From Deltaproteobacteria bacterium (GTDB taxonomy: Bacteria; Desulfobacterota; Desulfobacteria; Desulfobacterales; B30-G6): DNA of 7,536 nucleotides. Under the pieces are notes generated by a model. That model ran no database searches. It was not told where the DNA came from and worked only from the letters and a program-made list of their open reading frames with translations. The stretch covers positions 1 to 7,536 of the forward strand of contig QMMS01000219.1 in NCBI GenBank assembly GCA_003647375.1, given 5' to 3'. Below are positions 2 to 7,510 of the stretch, in pieces; the stretch's first letter is position 1, and every line of letters begins with the position of its first letter. The position numbers were made by a program, and so were the translations under genes.

Positions 2-769
2 GAACACGACAGTGGGCAGATTGCCGTGTCGAACGAAGAGTGGGGCGTTCAAAAAACAGATGCACGGCTCGTGGGATCGCTGACCGAGTTCAAAACTGCC
101 GACACACTTCTCAATCGTTCCCTCCATTATGCCCAGTATGGCTGCTATACCGGGAACCTGACCGGAGCGATTTACGGTGGATGGTGCGGCGGCTCCGAGG
201 GAACGGCAGTGACCACGGTTGCATACAGTCTTATCGGCCTGGTTATTCACGGTGCTATTTTCAATCAGCACTTTCCATTTCATTTGAATTACGGTTCCAA
301 CACCACCCGGGAGCTGTTGTGGCCCATCGCCATGGCAGGGCAGGCACTTGCCAGAAACAGCAAGTTGCTGCATACTTCCAATGGATTTGCCAATGCCGGT
401 CCCATGACTGAAATGTTGTTCCGGGAAACCGCGGTTCATGCCATGGTCTCGACGGTTACCGGATGGCATCTGTGGGAGATGGCTTCGACCCGCAACAAAT
501 ATAAAAATCGTGCAACGCCGCTGGAAGCCAGAATCGGCATGGAGGTCGGTCATGCCGTCGCGTGCCAGGGCTTGTCCCGGGCTGAAGTCAATGTTATTGC
601 CAAAAATTTACTGGCAAAATACGAGGACCATGCGGCGGACGCCCCCATCGGGTGTGAGTATCATGAATGTTACGATGTCGCCAAAGCTGTGCCGACCCAG
701 GAACATTTCGATATGTACCGCAGAATAAAAGATGAAATCGCAGATATGGGAATTGAATTTCCGTACTAA
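2..769 (+). CDS. mtmB: Monomethylamine methyltransferase, MtmB family, C-terminal part (5' end outside window)
   Basis: Family role: transfers a methyl group from monomethylamine to a cognate corrinoid protein in the cytoplasm. The frame is open from base 2 with no start of its own. The GTG at 26 lies inside conserved sequence and is not a real start. About 255 residues are visible, against roughly 458 for archaeal MtmB, so this is the C-terminal half. Matches recalled from the family are YGSNTTRE (archaeal WGSTNTRE), NAGPMTEMLFRE (CAGPCTEMCLLE), ATPLEARIGMEVGHAVACQGLSR (TTGMEARMMGEVARATAGVEIS), EVNVI, and ECYDV near the C-terminus. In archaeal MtmB the pyrrolysine lies about half a dozen codons upstream of the first residue seen here, so the codon that would settle Pyl use is just outside. 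The gene ends in TAA. The cognate corrinoid protein is not in the window. The MetH-activation-like and MtbA-like genes downstream support a methylamine role. The family call is firm; the exact substrate is less so. Confidence 0.87.
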   Translation, partial: EHDSGQIAVSNEEWGVQKTDARLVGSLTEFKTADTLLNRSLHYAQYGCYTGNLTGAIYGGWCGGSEGTAVTTVAYSLIGLVIHGAIFNQHFPFHLNYGSNTTRELLWPIAMAGQALARNSKLLHTSNGFANAGPMTEMLFRETAVHAMVSTVTGWHLWEMASTRNKYKNRATPLEARIGMEVGHAVACQGLSRAEVNVIAKNLLAKYEDHAADAPIGCEYHECYDVAKAVPTQEHFDMYRRIKDEIADMGIEFPY

Positions 770-861: not shown

Positions 862-1611
862 GTGATCGTTATGCTGAAAAGTCTAATAACTGATGAAATG
901 TTCGATGCAGGCGATTTGTCGACGGTGAGAATTGGAATCGATCCGGAAGATATCAGGCCGTCACCTGAGGCTGTTGCTCGCTACTTCGGGGGTCCGGATT
1001 ATCAAATGACCCCGGAGACGCATCAACGGGTATGCCAGGGAATCCAGCAGGCCGTGGAGATGGTAAAAGCGATTTTGTGCTATCGAGCGATCCCGATAGA
1101 TAAGATTGAAAAAGAATGTGGAATCGTTTTATCAGAGGGCGCGTATACGGATATTCTTCCTGACAGTACGGATGCTCACGCCCGATATTTTGCCGTTTAT
1201 GTCGGCACCCTGGGGAGTGCCCTCGAGACGATGTGCGGGGATTTGGCAAAGCGCAACAGCATATACCAATCCCTGCTGCTGGATGCCGTTGGTACGGCAA
1301 TGCTGGATACCATGGGATTGATATGCAATGACATGGTTGAGAAGCATTCACAACAGATGGGCCTTTTCACAGGATGTCGATTGGGTCCGGGTTTGAACGG
1401 AATTGCCCTGGAAAGCCAAGCCCTGTTATTCGACCTGTTGGGCGGTGAATCCGCTGGTGTGCATTTGAATGAAGCATTTATCATGCAGCCGGCAAAATCG
1501 ATATCAGGGTTTGTCGTATACAGTGATTCAGAGCAGCGGAAACGTCCGGGCAGTAAATGCCTGCAATGCGAGATGAAGCACTGCCAGTTTAGGTCTACAC
1601 AATATAAATGA
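862..1611 (+). CDS. MetH activation-domain-like protein, putative corrinoid reactivation or accessory factor
   Basis: The 249-residue product resembles the C-terminal activation domain of B12-dependent methionine synthase. That domain binds S-adenosylmethionine and lets an oxidised Co(II) corrinoid be reductively remethylated. The clearest match is residues 173-217: RLGPGLNG, then a helix, then GVHLNEAFIMQPAKSISGF, which corresponds to the family pattern GxxLxExxxMxPxKSVSG. An unusual tail follows with Cys233, Cys236 and Cys241 (CLQCEMKHC), which could bind a metal or Fe-S cluster. Stand-alone proteins of this kind occur beside corrinoid methyltransferases, so reactivating the MtmB or MtbA corrinoid partner is a reasonable inference. 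The start is uncertain: GTG at 862 is the first after a stop at 850, ATG at 871 is an alternative, and neither has a strong Shine-Dalgarno sequence. The TGA stop at 1609-1611 shares its last base with the repeat that follows. It is not RamA-like, since the CxxC-ferredoxin motifs of RamA are absent. Confidence 0.75.
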   Translation: MIVMLKSLITDEMFDAGDLSTVRIGIDPEDIRPSPEAVARYFGGPDYQMTPETHQRVCQGIQQAVEMVKAILCYRAIPIDKIEKECGIVLSEGAYTDILPDSTDAHARYFAVYVGTLGSALETMCGDLAKRNSIYQSLLLDAVGTAMLDTMGLICNDMVEKHSQQMGLFTGCRLGPGLNGIALESQALLFDLLGGESAGVHLNEAFIMQPAKSISGFVVYSDSEQRKRPGSKCLQCEMKHCQFRSTQYK

Positions 1612-1782: not shown

Positions 1783-2814
1783 ATGGCCAAACAGATGCTT
1801 ATCGACGCCACAAGAGGGAAAAAAACTGAAAAAGCCCCCTGGGTCCCGTATGCTGGTGTCAACTGTGCCTATCTCATCAATGAACGGGCAGACAGATATT
1901 TCAAGGATCCCGATATTCTTGCCAGGGGGGTTGTCCAGGCTGCCAAAACCTATCATGCGGATGGGATTCCCCTGATGTTCGACCTTTCCATAGAAGCGGA
2001 ATCCATCGGATGCGAAGTGGAGTACTGGGAAGACAATGTGCCTTCGGTGAGGACCCATCTCTGCGAAAAGGAGACACCGGAAGAACTCGGATTGGGATTG
2101 TTCACAAAAACGTCCGGAAGGTGGCCGATCATCTTCGAGGCGGCAGCCAAGGTAAAGCCGCAGCTTGATGAGCTGGATTGCGCCATGCTCGGTCTGGCGA
2201 CCGGTCCGTTGACCATGGCTTCCCATCTGGCCGGTGTGCGGATTTTTACGGCTGTTAAAAAAAAGAAGGACTTTGCCCATGCCATTATCGCCTATGCCGG
2301 AAAACTCTGTGCCGAGTCCGCCCGGTTTTATGCGCAAATGGGGTGTGACATCATCGCCATCGTTGACCCTGTGGCGTCTCAGATCCGACCCGAAACTTTT
2401 CAGGAATTCGTTACGCCCAACTGCCAGGAAGCTGTCACGGCGATTCATGATGCCGGTAAGACATCCAGCTTTTTTATCTGCGGGGACTGCACCAAAGTCA
2501 TCGAAGATGTCTGCAAGGTCGGCACCCATGGATTTGCCATCGATGAACAGTTGAATTTGAATTTCGTCCGTGATGTCGCAATGAAATATGGCAAAGGCTT
2601 TGGTGGCAATCTGAAGCTGACCCTTGCACTCAGCCTGGGACTTCTGTCACCCAGAGAAGATGCCCTGATAAGTCTTGCGGCGGGCGGCACCCAGGGATAC
2701 ACATTTGCCCCCGGTTGAGATATCCCATACGATGTTCCGGCGGAACATCTGATCCAGGCTTATGAAGCAAGGGAATGGTACCAAGAGCATTATCCAAGGT
2801 ATCCCGAGCGTTAG
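1783..2814 (+). CDS. MtbA/MtaA-like methylcobamide methyltransferase (UroD superfamily), selenoprotein with in-frame TGA
   Basis: Family role: moves a methyl group from a methyl-corrinoid protein to a thiol (coenzyme M in methanogens) activated by zinc. TGA at 2716-2718 is read here as selenocysteine. With read-through to TAG at 2812-2814 the product is 343 residues (archaeal MtbA is about 339); stopping at TGA gives a truncated 311. Conserved features include the GPLTMASHLAG helix (141-151), DPVAS (195-199), and the C-terminal block GGTQGYTFAPG-U-DIP around residue 312, where homologues have a cysteine zinc ligand. The upstream HxC zinc motif reads Phe231-Ile-Cys233-Gly-Asp-Cys236, so the usual His is missing. 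The distance from Cys233 to Sec312 (79 residues) is close to that between the two zinc cysteines of MtbA. The 31 residues after the TGA look like a genuine family C-terminus and coincide with a SECIS-like hairpin. The acceptor in a bacterium presumably lacking coenzyme M is unknown. Less likely alternative: a recent nonsense mutation. Confidence 0.85.
2716..2749 (+). promoter_or_regulatory. Selenocysteine UGA codon plus bacterial SECIS-like hairpin
   Basis: The TGA at 2716-2718 is followed by a perfect 8-bp stem: GATGTTCC (2731-2738), loop GGC (2739-2741), GGAACATC (2742-2749). If the last C-G pair opens, the apical loop is five bases. Twenty bases separate the TGA from the three-base loop, within the 16-37 window reported for bacterial SECIS elements, and G occupies the start of the loop as SelB recognition usually requires. 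The hairpin is itself coding sequence (DVPAEH), as bacterial SECIS elements are. Confidence 0.82.
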
Positions 2815-3105: not shown

Positions 3106-3498
3106 ATGGATAATAAAATACGCATAGACGTTCTTACCCTGGACAGTGTACAGTGTGCGGCATGTGGGTATATGATGGAATCGATTGCCGCGTTGCCGGT
3201 GGATATGCAGGAAGTGATCGAATACAAGGAGTGGTCCATCAAGACAAAAGAGGGTATCGGCACGTTTACGAGACTCAAAGGAAAGGTGCTGCCCACCATA
3301 TGCATTGAAGAGGATTTGGTGTTTCAAAGCATCATCCCCCAGTATGAAGAACTGATCGATGCGCTGGCAGAGCGAGCCGGCAGTGCTGAATTGAGAGAAC
3401 GTATCTTAGCGCTGCGTGATGAAGGTTTTGATTTCGACAATATAAAGGAAAATCTGGATAGAGCCGGTTCCGGTAAGAATTTGCGTACCGATGCTTAA
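3106..3498 (+). CDS. Thioredoxin-fold CxxC protein with C-terminal helical extension
   Basis: The 130-residue cytoplasmic protein has no signal peptide or membrane segment. It opens with a beta-strand (MDNKIRIDVLTL) leading into Cys17-Ala-Ala-Cys20, and has a likely cis-proline at 63 (KVLPTICIEED) after a predicted strand, the layout of the thioredoxin fold. Residues from about 90 form a charged helical tail rich in Glu, Arg and Asp, beyond a minimal thioredoxin fold. The start is well supported: GGGGGAG at 3091-3097 precedes ATG 3106 by eight bases, and no other start exists before the upstream stop at 3058. It lies 26 bases before the flavoprotein gene, so the two are probably co-transcribed. 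Its N-terminus (MxNKIRIxVL) matches that of the second CxxC protein at 5760. Its role as a thiol-disulfide or electron carrier for the flavoprotein is inferred from fold and context. Confidence 0.7.
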   Translation: MDNKIRIDVLTLDSVQCAACGYMMESIAALPVDMQEVIEYKEWSIKTKEGIGTFTRLKGKVLPTICIEEDLVFQSIIPQYEELIDALAERAGSAELRERILALRDEGFDFDNIKENLDRAGSGKNLRTDA

Positions 3499-3524: not shown

Positions 3525-5693
3525 GTGAAAGAGGCAAACGTTGAGACGAGAAAAGGTCAACCATGTCCGGTGTCCCGATTACGGGCGGATTGCACCTGTT
3601 TGTCACAAACGCAGCTTGCACCCCATTTAAAAAAAGCGATTTTTTCACTGTCTGCTGTTTTGGAAAAAATCTCCCTAGGCAAAGCATTCCCCGAAGACCT
3701 GGATATCGTGGCGTCCGCGGGAGAATATCTGGCATCCTCACAAAATGAAACTGTCGCATCCTTGGGTAAAACAATAGCAACGGTTCTGCTGTCGGAAGGT
3801 TTCTGTATGGACGCTCATATCCGAGACCATATCTGCCTGACAGGCGACTGCGAACCCCTTTCTCCGGCACCGTGTCAATGCGCCTGCCCCGCCGGAATCG
3901 ATGTCGCAAGCTATGTGGCCCTGATTGGACAGGGTAAAGACCGTGAAGCAGTAACGTTGATTCGGGAATCCAACCCTTTTCCATGGGTGTGTGGTCTGGT
4001 ATGTACGCATCCCTGTGAAGCGGCCTGCGTGAGAAAAAATATTGACGCGCCTGTGGCCATCAAGGCCCTTAAAGCCTTTGCCTCCAAAATCGTTCTGGAG
4101 AAGAGTGGTTTTCAAAACCCTGCCAAGGCAGCGAACAACGGCCACAAGGTATGTATTGTGGGTGCCGGGCCATCCGGGCTTAGCGCGGCCTATTATTTAA
4201 CCCTGAAGGGATATGGCGTGACCGTTATCGAAGCCCTGCCGTCCGCCGGTGGGATGATGCGTTTCGGGATACCCAGATACCGGCTTCCCCTTTCGGTTCT
4301 CGATCGAGAAATTTCTTTGATTCAAGATCTGGGTGTTGTCTTTCGTTTCAATAAACGCATGGGAAAGGATATAACGGTTGAAGATTTGATACAGGAGGGT
4401 TTTGAATCCTTCTATGTCGCGACCGGTGCCCAAAAAGGGCTGCAAATGGGGATAAAGGGCGAAGCAGATTTCCCGCAGGTTATGGATGGCATCACTTATT
4501 TACATCTTGCCTCCCTTGGCCGCGCCCCATCAATAGGCCCTCGCGTTGCAGTCGTCGGGGGAGGCAATGTAGCGGTAGATGCTGCGCGAACAGCACTGCG
4601 TCTCGGTTGCAGCGATGTTACTATTCTATACCGACGGACTCGAAACGAAATGCCGGCGCTGAATGAGGAAGTTATCCAGGCCAAGCAGGAGGGTGTACGG
4701 CTGTCATTTTTAAAAATTCCTGTCGAGGTAATGGGGTGCCAAGGAAAAGTGTCTGGAGTTCGTTGTATTGACGCCAGACTTGGCCAACCCGATGAAAGCG
4801 GGAGAAGAAGACCTGTTCCCATACAGAAAAGCCTGCATGTGTTTGAAGTTGATTCCGTCATCCAAGCCATAGGACAGCAATCAGACCGAGATGGGTTTTC
4901 AGCTTTTAATGGCCTGATGTGGACGGAGCGCAGCACGATTAAAACAGATCCTTTGACAGGGCAGACAGGGGATAATAGAGTTTTTGCAGGCGGCGATGCT
5001 GTTACAGGACCTGCCACCATTATCGAGGCTATCGCTTCCGGGAAAATAGCTGCAGATAATATCGATAGATCTTTTCAGGGATTGCCCATGCTGAAAACAC
5101 GACATCTTGCAGCTAGAAGAAAGCAAACCCCTTTTCTTGAAACCACAGCGTTTCAGAAAACATCTCTAACAAGACCGTTGGTTCCTCTGCTTGATGTCGA
5201 GAAAAGAAAGAAGAATTTTGAGCAGGTGGAATTAGCGCTTCCACCGGAGACAGCCAGGACGGAAGCCTTACGGTGTCTCAGATGTGATGTGTGTATTCGG
5301 TGTGGCAGATGCGTGGACGCCTGTCGTGAGAAGTTGGGCTTTGAAGCACTTTTCCTTGGTTACCTTGTCGGCGAGACACCGGGCCCGACCGATTTCAATT
5401 TGACCGACGAAAGATGTATCCTGTGCGGCGCATGTGCTAACATCTGTCCCACGGGTGCTTTGACATTGAAGCATAAAAATGATCAGTGCCTCCTCAGTCT
5501 TTGCGGCACAACGCTCTGCCGGGACAATCTGGTTTACTGCAAAGGGTGCGGCAAAGCACTGGGAGCAGACAGATATATTGCCTATATGGAAAAACAGGTC
5601 CGTCCCTATGGTGTCGAACCGGAAGGCGTACACCTGTGCCGGGTTTGTAAACGGATGACTGCCGAAAAAGAATTCACGAAACAAGTTAATTGA
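3525..5693 (+). CDS. GltD-like FAD/NAD(P) oxidoreductase with multiple Fe-S domains
   Basis: The 722-residue product belongs to the glutamate synthase small subunit / DPYD-type flavoprotein group. Visible modules: residues 35-105 resemble the NuoF C-terminal 4Fe-4S helical domain (AVLEKISLGKAFPEDLDIV) but have lost most of its cysteine ligands. Residues 115-190 form the DPYD-like Fe-S domain (Cys117, 119, 121, 156, 160, 164, 168). Residues 208-240 hold the FAD site GAGPSGLSAA. Residues 340-372 hold a second dinucleotide site, GGGNVAVDAARTALRLG. FAGGDAVTGPATIIEAIASGKIAA (487-510) is the FAD-closing motif. Residues 584-641 carry two 4Fe-4S motifs (C590/593/596/600 and C631/634/637/641). A Cys-rich tail has CKGC (672-675) and CRVC (705-708). 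There is no glutamate synthase large subunit nearby, so amino-acid synthesis is unlikely. Flanking CxxC proteins suggest NAD(P)H-driven reduction of a thiol or Fe-S partner. Start: GTG 3525 is the only start after the stop at 3510 that keeps the N-terminus. Confidence 0.85.
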   Translation: MKEANVETRKGQPCPVSRLRADCTCLSQTQLAPHLKKAIFSLSAVLEKISLGKAFPEDLDIVASAGEYLASSQNETVASLGKTIATVLLSEGFCMDAHIRDHICLTGDCEPLSPAPCQCACPAGIDVASYVALIGQGKDREAVTLIRESNPFPWVCGLVCTHPCEAACVRKNIDAPVAIKALKAFASKIVLEKSGFQNPAKAANNGHKVCIVGAGPSGLSAAYYLTLKGYGVTVIEALPSAGGMMRFGIPRYRLPLSVLDREISLIQDLGVVFRFNKRMGKDITVEDLIQEGFESFYVATGAQKGLQMGIKGEADFPQVMDGITYLHLASLGRAPSIGPRVAVVGGGNVAVDAARTALRLGCSDVTILYRRTRNEMPALNEEVIQAKQEGVRLSFLKIPVEVMGCQGKVSGVRCIDARLGQPDESGRRRPVPIQKSLHVFEVDSVIQAIGQQSDRDGFSAFNGLMWTERSTIKTDPLTGQTGDNRVFAGGDAVTGPATIIEAIASGKIAADNIDRSFQGLPMLKTRHLAARRKQTPFLETTAFQKTSLTRPLVPLLDVEKRKKNFEQVELALPPETARTEALRCLRCDVCIRCGRCVDACREKLGFEALFLGYLVGETPGPTDFNLTDERCILCGACANICPTGALTLKHKNDQCLLSLCGTTLCRDNLVYCKGCGKALGADRYIAYMEKQVRPYGVEPEGVHLCRVCKRMTAEKEFTKQVN

Positions 5694-5717: not shown

Positions 5718-5759
5718 AGAAAATTCTGCAATGTCGCTGCCATGGTCAGAGGGGGTGTG

Positions 5760-6023
5760 ATGAAAAATAAAATCAGAATAGAGGTTCTGGGGCCCGGCTG
5801 TAAAAACTGTGACGCTCTTTATGGCAACGTGCTTAAATCGATTGAGCAGGCGGGACTGAAAGAAAAGGTTGAAGTGGAGAAGAGACAGGACATCGATTAC
5901 TTTATCAAGATGGGTGTCTTCAGTACGCCGGCCCTGGTCATCGATGGAAGGGTTGTCTCCACGAGTCGGGTGCTCAACCCTGATGAGATCATTAAAATTC
6001 TGGAGAATTGTGGCATCAATTAA
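5760..6023 (+). CDS. Small thioredoxin-fold protein (redox-active disulfide protein 2 type)
   Basis: The 87-residue cytoplasmic protein has the minimal thioredoxin/glutaredoxin-like fold of the TM0979 / redox-active disulfide protein 2 family. Visible features are strand KIRIEVLGPG, then Cys14-Lys-Asn-Cys17, then a helix, then the cis-proline loop GVFSTPALVIDG (Pro57), then a final helix ending in another Cys. The ATG at 5760 is preferred because AGAGGGGG (5748-5755) sits four bases before it and the family starts at this strand. An in-frame ATG at 5742 would add six residues (MVRGGV) but has a poorer ribosome site. The gene follows the flavoprotein gene by 66 bases and likely shares its transcript. 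It is plausibly a dithiol carrier paired with that reductase. The substrate is unknown. Confidence 0.8.
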   Translation: MKNKIRIEVLGPGCKNCDALYGNVLKSIEQAGLKEKVEVEKRQDIDYFIKMGVFSTPALVIDGRVVSTSRVLNPDEIIKILENCGIN

Positions 6024-6106: not shown

Positions 6107-6306
6107 GGCCTTCGGAAATCCATTTTAAAGCCGGTCAAAACTCGCTTCTAAGGCGCCGTAAGGCCCGCTGCTGCCCGTTGTGTTGAAACAGGTTAAAATA
6201 ATACAGACTGATTATCTATTTGTAACCATTGCAGTAAAGCAGCGGCCCTAACGGCGCCTAACGAGCTCAAACAGTTGCCCGGCTTTAAAATGAATCCCCG
6301 AAGACC
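6107..6306. repeat. Long inverted-repeat element (MITE-like or palindromic intergenic element)
   Basis: The left arm 6107-6172 is the imperfect reverse complement of the right arm 6238-6306, separated by about 65 bases. Matching blocks include a 13-base perfect pair (6122-6134 with 6279-6291), AGGCGCCG (6151-6158) with CGGCGCCT (6252-6259), and GCTGCT/AGCAGC at the inner ends. A smaller inner pair is GGTTA (6191-6195) with TAACC (6223-6227). The element occupies the gene-free stretch 6024-6424 and has no coding potential. The right arm plus downstream flank is repeated at 7405-7510. It could be a non-autonomous mobile element, but target-site duplications were not evident. Confidence 0.65.
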
Positions 6307-6346
6307 TGTGTTCATGGTATGATTTGTGTTTTATAGATAGTCACAT
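6242..6346 (+). repeat. Direct repeat, copy A (upstream of the CobW-type gene)
   Basis: This pairs with 7405-7509 at a constant offset of 1163 bases with no gaps. By hand count roughly four-fifths of positions agree across 6249-6346. The best-conserved parts are the start (TAACGGCGCCTAACGA), CAGTTGCCC, and TTTATAGAT near the end. It overlaps the right arm of the inverted repeat and runs about 40 bases beyond it. It lies upstream of the GTPase gene, so it may carry regulatory sequence. Confidence 0.7.
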
Positions 6347-6383
6347 ACGCAACAAGTTACTCAGATGTAAAAACTTGCAAAAA

Positions 6384-6406
6384 ATAAAATCGTGTAACGA
6401 TTTTAT
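6384..6406 (+). repeat. Hairpin just upstream of the GTPase ribosome site
   Basis: ATAAAATCGT (6384-6393) pairs perfectly with ACGATTTTAT (6397-6406) around loop GTA. It ends four bases before the Shine-Dalgarno AAAGGA (6411-6416) of the gene starting at 6425. It is closely related to the hairpin at 770-794 (ATAAAATCG stem, loop GTT), with a compensated change from C-G to T-A at the stem top. It could influence translation or be a dispersed palindrome that landed here. Confidence 0.6.
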
Positions 6407-6424: not shown

Positions 6425-7414
6425 ATGTCCGGGACTACGGCAGTATATCTGATCAGCGGATTTTTAGGAAGCGGCAAGACCACATTTCTCAACCGAATCA
6501 TTCATTCTTTTCCGAGCAATCGAAAACTCATGATCCTCATGAACGAGTTTGGTGAGATGGGGGTGGACGGGTCGCTGGTTGAAAATGATGATCTGGCCAT
6601 GCTGGAAATTAGCAAGGGGTCCATTTTCTGTGTCTGTGTCAAGACTGATTTTATCAAAGGTCTGATGAATATTGCACAGAACACCCGACCCGATGCATTG
6701 ATCATTGAAGCGACGGGTGTTGCGAATCCGTCTGACTTGAAGCGAGATCTCAAACTATCCATTTTTCAGGACCGCTTTCAACTCAGAGAACAGTTCTGCA
6801 TTATTGACGCCGGCAACTTCAAAGATGCCTATGACACGTTTACCTCGGTGGAAAAGCAGATAGAATCCGCCACGGTTTTTATTATCAACAAGGTTGATGA
6901 AGCCGATGCCGGCGTCATCCAAAAGGTGAAGAAAATTGTTGAGAGACATCACCCCAATCCAGAATTTTACGAGACCACTTATGCCGATATACCCCTCGCA
7001 AAATATCTGCCGGATGTTATAATGGCTGAAACCCGAGACGAACATCGAACAATACCTGTTTCAGAACAGGCACTTGAGGCTGCCATAGATAAGCTTCTTC
7101 AGGATCCAGGCACGTCGATGACGCCCCCGGATCGTCTGGTGTCTGGTTCCTTTGCCTGGAAGGGGATGGATTGCAGTCAGTTTGAAGAGATGATGAAGCT
7201 CATTCCGGATGGCATGGTAAGGGCCAAAGGTGTTTTTGAAACCTGCACCGGAATTTATTTGTTCAACTGGGTAATGGGGCGTGGTCAATTTGAGGAAATT
7301 GCCCGGAAGGAAAGCATGGCATCCCTCATGAACCAGATCGTCTTTATCGGGCCGCCGGAAGCCATGGAAGAATTGGGAAGAATTGATTTTAAAGGTAAGA
7401 TGCTGCGGACCTAA
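6425..7414 (+). CDS. CobW-type G3E GTPase, putative metal or cofactor chaperone
   Basis: The 329-residue protein belongs to the G3E family (CobW/YjiA/ZNG1, UreG, HypB), GTPases that deliver metals such as zinc, cobalt or nickel. Motifs: Walker A GFLGSGKTT (12-20); NEFGEMGVD (40-48); the Glu-containing G3 motif EATGVANP (95-102); and the guanine-specificity motif NKVD (155-158). The CobW C-terminal domain is present, ending in the NQIVFIG strand. The metal-binding CxCC motif is altered: residues 65-72 read GSIFCVCV, keeping Cys69 and Cys71 but with Val in place of the last Cys. ATG 6425 has AAAGGA eight bases upstream. The stop codon falls inside direct-repeat copy B. Its place next to corrinoid methyltransferase genes suggests metal supply to the zinc enzyme or the corrinoid system, which is inference. 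Confidence 0.85.
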   Translation: MSGTTAVYLISGFLGSGKTTFLNRIIHSFPSNRKLMILMNEFGEMGVDGSLVENDDLAMLEISKGSIFCVCVKTDFIKGLMNIAQNTRPDALIIEATGVANPSDLKRDLKLSIFQDRFQLREQFCIIDAGNFKDAYDTFTSVEKQIESATVFIINKVDEADAGVIQKVKKIVERHHPNPEFYETTYADIPLAKYLPDVIMAETRDEHRTIPVSEQALEAAIDKLLQDPGTSMTPPDRLVSGSFAWKGMDCSQFEEMMKLIPDGMVRAKGVFETCTGIYLFNWVMGRGQFEEIARKESMASLMNQIVFIGPPEAMEELGRIDFKGKMLRT

Positions 7415-7510
7415 CGGCGCCTAACGATCTCAGACAGTTGCCCGACTTTAAAACGAACCCCCGCAGACCTCTGTACGCAGTATCGCTTGAGCTTTATAGA
7501 TGACCGCATA
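7405..7510 (+). repeat. Direct repeat, copy B (overlaps the end of the GTPase gene)
   Basis: This is a diverged copy of 6242-6346, carrying only the right arm and flank of the inverted-repeat element, with no left arm seen. The TAA stop of the GTPase gene (7412-7414) lies inside the repeat, at the TAACGG that copy A shows at 6249. The bases between it and the window end include TATAAC (7520-7525), but I cannot assign a convincing promoter. Confidence 0.7.

Follow-up and report, generated by a model that had tools for sequence, protein, structure and literature searches.

A UroD-superfamily, MtaA-like protein of Desulfobacterota with a predicted selenocysteine at the last metal-site cysteine of MtaA

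The described protein closest in fold to the one considered here is MtaA, the methylcobalamin:coenzyme M methyltransferase of Methanosarcina mazei (PDB 4ay7/4ay8), whose His240 we take to be a zinc ligand. Mlp proteins, which are likewise MtaA-like, are encoded in type 1 mlp gene clusters alongside a corrinoid protein and an activase, frequently with selenium genes as well; the members named as containing selenocysteine (Sec) are glycine reductase proteins, and the available part of that report mentions no Sec in Mlp (PMC10418091). Selenoproteins have mostly been seen as serving redox functions, and HgcA and Sao, two selenoproteins that likewise place Sec in corrinoid or organometallic biochemistry, are set apart from the present family by the names and domain identifiers listed in a 2026 inventory (PMC13188914). 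Here we describe UroD-Sec, the product of a gene at 1783..2814 on the forward strand of a 7,536-nucleotide stretch of a Deltaproteobacteria bacterium (contig QMMS01000219.1; the whole stretch is called the window). UroD-Sec is 24% identical to MtaA, and its gene carries an in-frame TGA (2716..2718, forward strand) that almost certainly encodes selenocysteine (Sec312). The explanation that we favour, with a probability of about 0.7, is that UroD-Sec is an MtaA-like selenoprotein of the UroD superfamily in which Sec312 acts as a metal ligand in corrinoid methyl transfer.

The UroD-family open reading frame 1783-2718, which matches PF01208 with an E value of 6.6e-46, stays open through the TGA as far as a TAG at 2812-2814. 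The read-through product is 343 residues long; the TGA is its codon 312, and 31 sense codons lie beyond it. This continuation had been claimed in an earlier note on this DNA, and its coordinates were confirmed. Related loci number 33 in genome contigs, mostly from Desulfobacterota, and include Desulfofundulus australicus, Desulfotomaculum copahuensis and the Olavius symbiont Delta 1; the first two we presume to be Firmicutes, that is, members of another phylum. Two of the 33 loci are cut before the TGA site, and all 31 that cover it keep the TGA, its APG*D context and the downstream frame. Because the same codon is present in 31/31 loci from separate records, a sequencing error at the TGA is ruled out. 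A set of 37 sequences, comprising the window, these 31 loci and five new loci from a phylum survey, has the TGA and 31-40 open codons after it throughout. Differences by codon position 1/2/3 in this set are 0.18/0.16/0.40 over the 27 codons after the TGA and flat beyond the real stop (0.71/0.70/0.72), indicating coding constraint from the TGA to the second stop and none such beyond. Coding-type conservation stops at the TAG (2812..2814, forward strand), which marks it as the real stop codon.

The column was also followed in wider surveys and a protein search. Among 297 genomes sampled evenly across the phylum, six matched at E 1e-60 or better, with one TGA in each. In a survey of the order, 44 of 340 genomes matched, including three distant and two Cys-type genomes, and gave 49 stretches. 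Of these, 42 are long and contain one TGA, two are long and free of stops, one is a fragment with a TGA, one is a fragment ending before the site, and three are distant and without a stop. The 36 loci fetched from the two surveys overlap the related-loci set; they have TGA at the column in 34 cases and TGC in two (L074 and L075), the full frame being kept in both TGC homologues. The protein search gave 842 homologues, of which 120 were listed, and the Cys and Trp counts rest on the listed ones. Among these, 97 end exactly at the TGA position, and the 23 longer ones have Cys at the column in 22 cases and Trp in one (P0072). The alignment of homologues thus bore out the pairing of Cys and Sec at this column that the earlier note had expected. 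P0072 combines its Trp with a Sec-type flank (DVPVEH); its TGA was perhaps translated with another code table.

If the TGA were an ordinary stop, the protein would end at residue 311, as is predicted for the 97 listed homologues; the unremarkable folding energy of the hairpin described below would also agree with a plain stop. However, coding-type conservation extends at least 31 codons past the TGA in all 37 sequences, two homologues have TGC with the full frame, and 22 of the 23 longer proteins have Cys. Termination at this codon would also remove from the structure model its final helix (residues 320-336) and the loop that follows the last strand. A plain stop was therefore rejected, on the TGA in 31/31 and 34/36 loci and on the coding conservation beyond it, and we consider it extremely improbable. 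The same very low probability is assigned to an altered genetic code in which the TGA is read as Trp or by unspecific suppression. The Trp of P0072, possibly the outcome of gene calling under a TGA=Trp table, would fit an altered code, but Cys and not Trp occupies the column in the other 22 longer homologues, and an altered code was rejected on this ground. Furthermore, in 5 of the 37 sequences the real stop codon of this gene is itself a TGA, and selenocysteine machinery is found in most of the genomes concerned.

A hairpin resembling the bacterial selenocysteine insertion sequence (SECIS) lies just downstream at 2731..2749 on the forward strand. In the window its stem (GATGTTCC/GGAACATC) has 8 bp and a GGC loop and starts 12 bases after the TGA. 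Synonymous entropy was assessed for 255 codon columns of the 37 sequences; the lowest values, the TGA aside, are those of Val318 and Pro319, both in the hairpin: Val318 is GTT in 34/34 (expected fraction 0.23) and Pro319 is CCG in 37/37 (expected fraction 0.33). Other codons of the hairpin region rank 5 (Asp317), 7 (residue 320), 11 (Glu321), 19 (Tyr316) and 22 (His322). In 21 sequences stem pairing reaches 88%, against at most 61% for any slid version of the stem, and the inner six pairs are intact in all but one of 126 cells. Compensatory changes are present in two stem pairs (three cells), and two such pairs were reached by 22 of 500 shuffles. Codon conservation and pair counts therefore point to a SECIS-like element, a predicted target of SelB. 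In L043, a divergent relative, the sequence of the hairpin is changed, and the two TGC homologues lack it at the corresponding position. An Rfam scan of the window gave no match.

The genomes of the relatives mostly carry the machinery for selenocysteine insertion. selB exceeds its cut-off in 25 of 31 genomes and tRNA-Sec in 26 of 31, where all tRNA-Sec matches score at least 70 bits; the tRNA-Sec cut-off of 47 bits is also passed by 5 of 14 control genomes and that of selB by 2 of 14. selA was found in 10 of 11 genomes queried, including both Cys-type genomes. L001, which at 91% identity is the nearest relative, comes from a genome where selB and selA exceed their cut-offs and tRNA-Sec does not. 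A scan of the window for tRNAs gave no match.

Several observations weigh against selenocysteine at this codon. The Trp of P0072, noted above, is one of them. Six of the 31 genomes do not have selB over the cut-off, five do not have tRNA-Sec and three (G013, G025 and G026) have neither, all of these being metagenome-assembled genomes. Folding energy failed as a test of the hairpin: the energy of the window hairpin is ordinary (z -0.45), and 56 of 200 shuffles fold as well. Covariation in the stem is modest, with one slid control higher (0.077 vs 0.067). The two outermost stem pairs are often lost, being unpaired in 14 and 5 of the 21 sequences, so that the perfect 8-bp stem described in the earlier note holds in the window but not as a general feature. 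The Cys homologue L075 has a different 9-bp hairpin farther downstream, and hence a stem alone proves little. The assignment of selenocysteine thus relies on Cys/Sec pairs, the conserved TGA, the constrained hairpin and the Sec machinery in most relatives' genomes taken together, and on these grounds the gene is almost certainly that of a selenoprotein.

UroD-Sec has the UroD fold and full-length similarity to MtaA and MtbA. In the profile alignment with MtaA (4ay7), Sec312 falls on Cys319, the last metal-site Cys; Phe231 (2473..2475, forward strand) falls on His240, Cys233 (2479..2481, forward strand) on Cys242 and Asp254 (2542..2544, forward strand) on Glu263. Thus, compared with MtaA, His240 is replaced by Phe, Glu263 by Asp and Cys319 by Sec, or by Cys in a minority. 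Cys233 and Asp254 are invariant in 45 aligned members, residue 312 is Sec or Cys in 44 of them and Trp in one, and an invariant His148 might conceivably stand in for the lost His. In place of the zinc-ligand pattern His-x-Cys, Glu/Asp, Cys, the protein has Phe-x-Cys, Asp, Sec/Cys. The earlier proposal that Sec replaces a zinc-ligand Cys of an MtbA/MtaA-like enzyme accordingly stands for the position of Sec at the last metal-site Cys column; the zinc site as such, with Phe for His and Asp for Glu, does not. Assignment to the MtaA/MtbA family itself is not supported, since the protein scores below every NCBIfam cut-off for MtaA, MtbA and CmuA: 119.2 bits against 235.4 for mtaA_cmuA, 105.7 against 400 for MtaA and 83.5 against 600 for MtbA. 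Its score for the uroporphyrinogen decarboxylase HemE (hemE) is 58 bits against a cut-off of 303, and no model of NCBIfam 20.0 exceeds its cut-off for UroD-Sec. To our knowledge, no coenzyme M is known in these bacteria.

The loss of the His speaks against a standard zinc site: Phe stands at its place in 45/45 aligned members, and in three outgroup proteins as well. CdmB of this superfamily is described as working without zinc (PMC13222342), and MesB-like proteins with FSHG, YCDQ or YREQ are said not to conserve the zinc residues, while Asp for Glu occurs in active MesB (PMC7857596). On sequence comparison, UroD-Sec is a sister subfamily of MtaA/MtbA with an altered site that reads F-C-D-Sec, and zinc binding, with it a selenolate–zinc bond, can therefore be put forward only as a hypothesis. 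The paralogue UroD2 (MtaA/CmuA-like, e.g. L029:3435-4496) belongs to the same superfamily and the same clusters. When 146 genomes were searched with UroD2, 40 matches were obtained; three of them have a TGA, none at the Sec column: the TGA is the terminal stop in two and lies upstream of the start in one, and the column is a plain Cys. The three UroD2-like proteins that were read keep HxC and PGC without Sec at the column, and UroD2 too scores below the MtaA/CmuA cut-offs. Within the UroD2 search, Sec was found only in the Phe-x-Cys subfamily.

The window contains seven genes, all on the forward strand. Upstream of UroD-Sec are the C-terminal part of an MtmB homologue (2..769; PF05369) and a protein like the MetH reactivation domain (862..1611; PF02965, 6.5e-07). 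Downstream follow a thioredoxin-like protein with CxxC (3106..3498), which has a weak match below cut-off to NCBIfam HUIPC_Trx_selen; an FAD/NAD(P) and 4Fe-4S oxidoreductase resembling GltD (3525..5693; domain match); a small thioredoxin of the MTH895/ArsE type (5742..6023; PF13192); and a CobW/COG0523 GTPase, a candidate metallochaperone (6425..7414). Neighbourhoods were compared over 33 rows, one for the window and 32 for other loci (L033 was excluded), by matching 18 representative proteins and one Sec thioredoxin to each. A match counted wherever it lay in the stretch fetched, and the counts are minima owing to short contigs. The thioredoxin-like protein is the usual neighbour, in 30 of the 33 rows, followed by CobW (27), a B12-binding corrinoid protein (25), DUF2284 (21), the RACo activase (20), DUF6951 (19), UroD2 (15), MtrH (14), the small thioredoxin (14) and a TrxR-like protein (13). 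Rarer are the Sec thioredoxin (9), MtmB-like (8), MttB (4) and a MIP channel (3), and the oxidoreductase was found in the window alone. Two layouts recur. The first runs B12-binding protein, MtmB-like, UroD-Sec, thioredoxin-like, CobW and MttB (e.g. L001, L004), and the window contains its section between the MtmB-like and CobW genes, into which the oxidoreductase and the small thioredoxin are inserted. The second runs MtrH, UroD2, corrinoid protein, RACo, DUF6951, DUF2284, UroD-Sec, thioredoxins, CobW and TrxR. At the Cys-type locus L075 the MtmB-like, thioredoxin-like and CobW genes are all retained; at the outgroup loci L076-L078 there are genes for corrinoid proteins and for distant thioredoxin-like proteins. 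Since genes for a corrinoid protein, RACo, thioredoxin-like proteins and CobW lie nearby, the predicted activity of UroD-Sec is very probably in corrinoid methyl transfer.

A mechanism can be proposed from the comparison and the alignment. The UGA would be read as selenocysteine, aided by the hairpin just downstream. By the alignment, Sec312 occupies the position of the last zinc Cys in MtaA, and Cys233 and Asp254 occupy those of two other ligands. The selenolate, Cys233 and Asp254 may then hold a metal, probably zinc, delivered by the neighbouring CobW. This metal would activate a thiol or selenol acceptor, which would take the methyl group from methyl-Co(III) or give it to Co(I). Without the His such a site would be poorer in ligands, for which the more nucleophilic selenolate would compensate, and the thioredoxin-like neighbours would either provide the thiol or maintain Cys and Sec in the reduced state.

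For Sec312 as a metal ligand, taken as a claim of its own, the odds are about even. A selenoprotein in which Sec312 and Cys233 instead form a redox or nucleophilic pair would share everything with the favoured explanation except the metal step. The selenolate would take or attack the methyl group, through an Se-methyl or selenenylsulfide intermediate, and be restored by thioredoxin-like partners; glycine/betaine reductase chemistry offers an analogy. Such a metal-free pair would suit the Phe in all 45 members and the three outgroup proteins, the invariant Cys233 with Sec or Cys at 312 in 44 of 45, and the frequency of thioredoxin-like, TrxR-like and Sec-thioredoxin genes (30, 13 and 9 of the 33 rows). 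However, Asp254 is retained, its substitution for Glu is compatible with activity in MesB (PMC7857596), and a COG0523 gene accompanies 27 of the 33 rows. We regard the metal-free pair as possible, with a chance clearly below even.

For the group to which the window belongs, the MtmB and MttB homologues suggest amines as the putative substrate. The upstream MtmB homologue itself looks like a pyrrolysine-less MtmB-like protein by its relatives: none of eight full-length ones (L001-L005, L007, L028 and L039) has an in-frame TAG, and in L004 a Val is aligned with Pyl202 of MtmB. Instead of amines, the enzyme might demethylate methylated compounds of selenium, arsenic or sulfur, with thioredoxins, an aquaporin-like gene and a DUF2284 protein as partners; Sec in either role would be compatible with this. 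DUF2284 in 21 and the MIP channel in 3 of the 33 rows would agree with this, as would the resemblance, below cut-off, of the DUF2284 protein to the DUF2284 part of two metal/arsenic selenoproteins, the MTH895/ArsE family of the small thioredoxin and the proposal that related Mlp clusters handle methyl-selenium compounds (PMC10418091). The MtmB and MttB neighbours in the window's group, in contrast, point to N-methyl compounds, and a demethylase of this kind seems unlikely. Tentatively, and with a probability that we place a little short of even, a bolder reading can be offered, that of a new selenoprotein family. The classical His-Cys-Glu-Cys zinc site of thiol methyltransferases would have become Phe-Cys-Asp-Sec, and its selenolate, either bound to a metal of low coordination or paired with Cys and free of metal, would transfer methyl to or from the corrinoid protein. 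A dedicated thioredoxin-like partner, Sec-containing in some clusters, would act as reductant or methyl acceptor, and in the window's group UroD-Sec would be the second methyltransferase of pyrrolysine-independent methylamine-type systems.

The earlier note had asked whether this family is already listed as a selenoprotein. A UroD/MtaA entry is absent from Table 1 (119 families/subfamilies) of the 2026 inventory (PMC13188914), and no NCBIfam cut-off is passed. A literature search, which covered titles, abstracts and passages of papers, found no UroD/MtaA selenoprotein. An earlier listing is possible, since Kivenson et al. 2021 tabulate 34 putative selenoproteins of marine Deltaproteobacteria in supplements that lay outside that search (PMC8318568). 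A methylcobalamin:CoM methyltransferase homologue appears in PMC1242214 among predicted UAG (pyrrolysine) read-through cases, which concern a different codon.

If the favoured explanation is true, a corrinoid methyltransferase would have Sec in its active site, at the point where zinc is bound in the superfamily, and UroD-Sec would represent a new kind of selenoprotein in methyl metabolism. Matches are present in 44 of the 340 genomes sampled from the order, the distant and Cys-type ones included, and in two Desulfotomaculum-type records; cultured bacteria with the gene include Desulfocicer vacuolatum DSM 3385 and Desulfatitalea alkaliphila. In databases, proteins of the TGA type are cut short at this codon (97 of 120 listed). 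The natural Cys/Sec series without the His ligand would allow a test of the part of selenium in methyl transfer. UroD-Sec is also a candidate for the second methyltransferase of the bacterial trimethylamine system, which Kivenson et al. 2021 (PMC8318568) call uncharacterized and for which they propose a MetH-family protein.

A second apparent selenoprotein is encoded near some UroD-Sec genes. It is a small thioredoxin-like protein with an in-frame TGA, in the context RQUxACVYM or HQUxACVYM, or QUASG in two copies. Ten copies were read in eight loci, all with the TGA: L002:4910-5167; L006:12208-12471; L008:11854-12117; L017:13946-14209 and 14251-14499; L018:14649-14909 and 14936-15196; L021:14474-14743; L022:96-365; and L029:11896-12156. 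The TGA is followed by a recurring inverted repeat of the GGTAA...TTACC type, with variants. The two Sec thioredoxins tested match HUIPC_Trx_selen weakly; the thioredoxin-like neighbours, some with Sec, resemble the HUIPC-motif thioredoxin-like selenoprotein (NF047660), all below its cut-off.

Minor observations concern the surroundings of these genes. DUF6951 and DUF2284 genes lie near the Sec-UroD gene, for example at L011:8709-9185 and L011:9192-9794. Beside its Sec-UroD gene, L043 has a stretch 42% identical (partial) to the GltD-like oxidoreductase. A plasmid search gave five records, all below 60% identity. In the window, a 109-nt intergenic direct repeat, 80% identical, flanks the CobW gene (6239-6347 and 7402-7510), and a 26-nt repeat occurs at 768-793 and 6381-6406.
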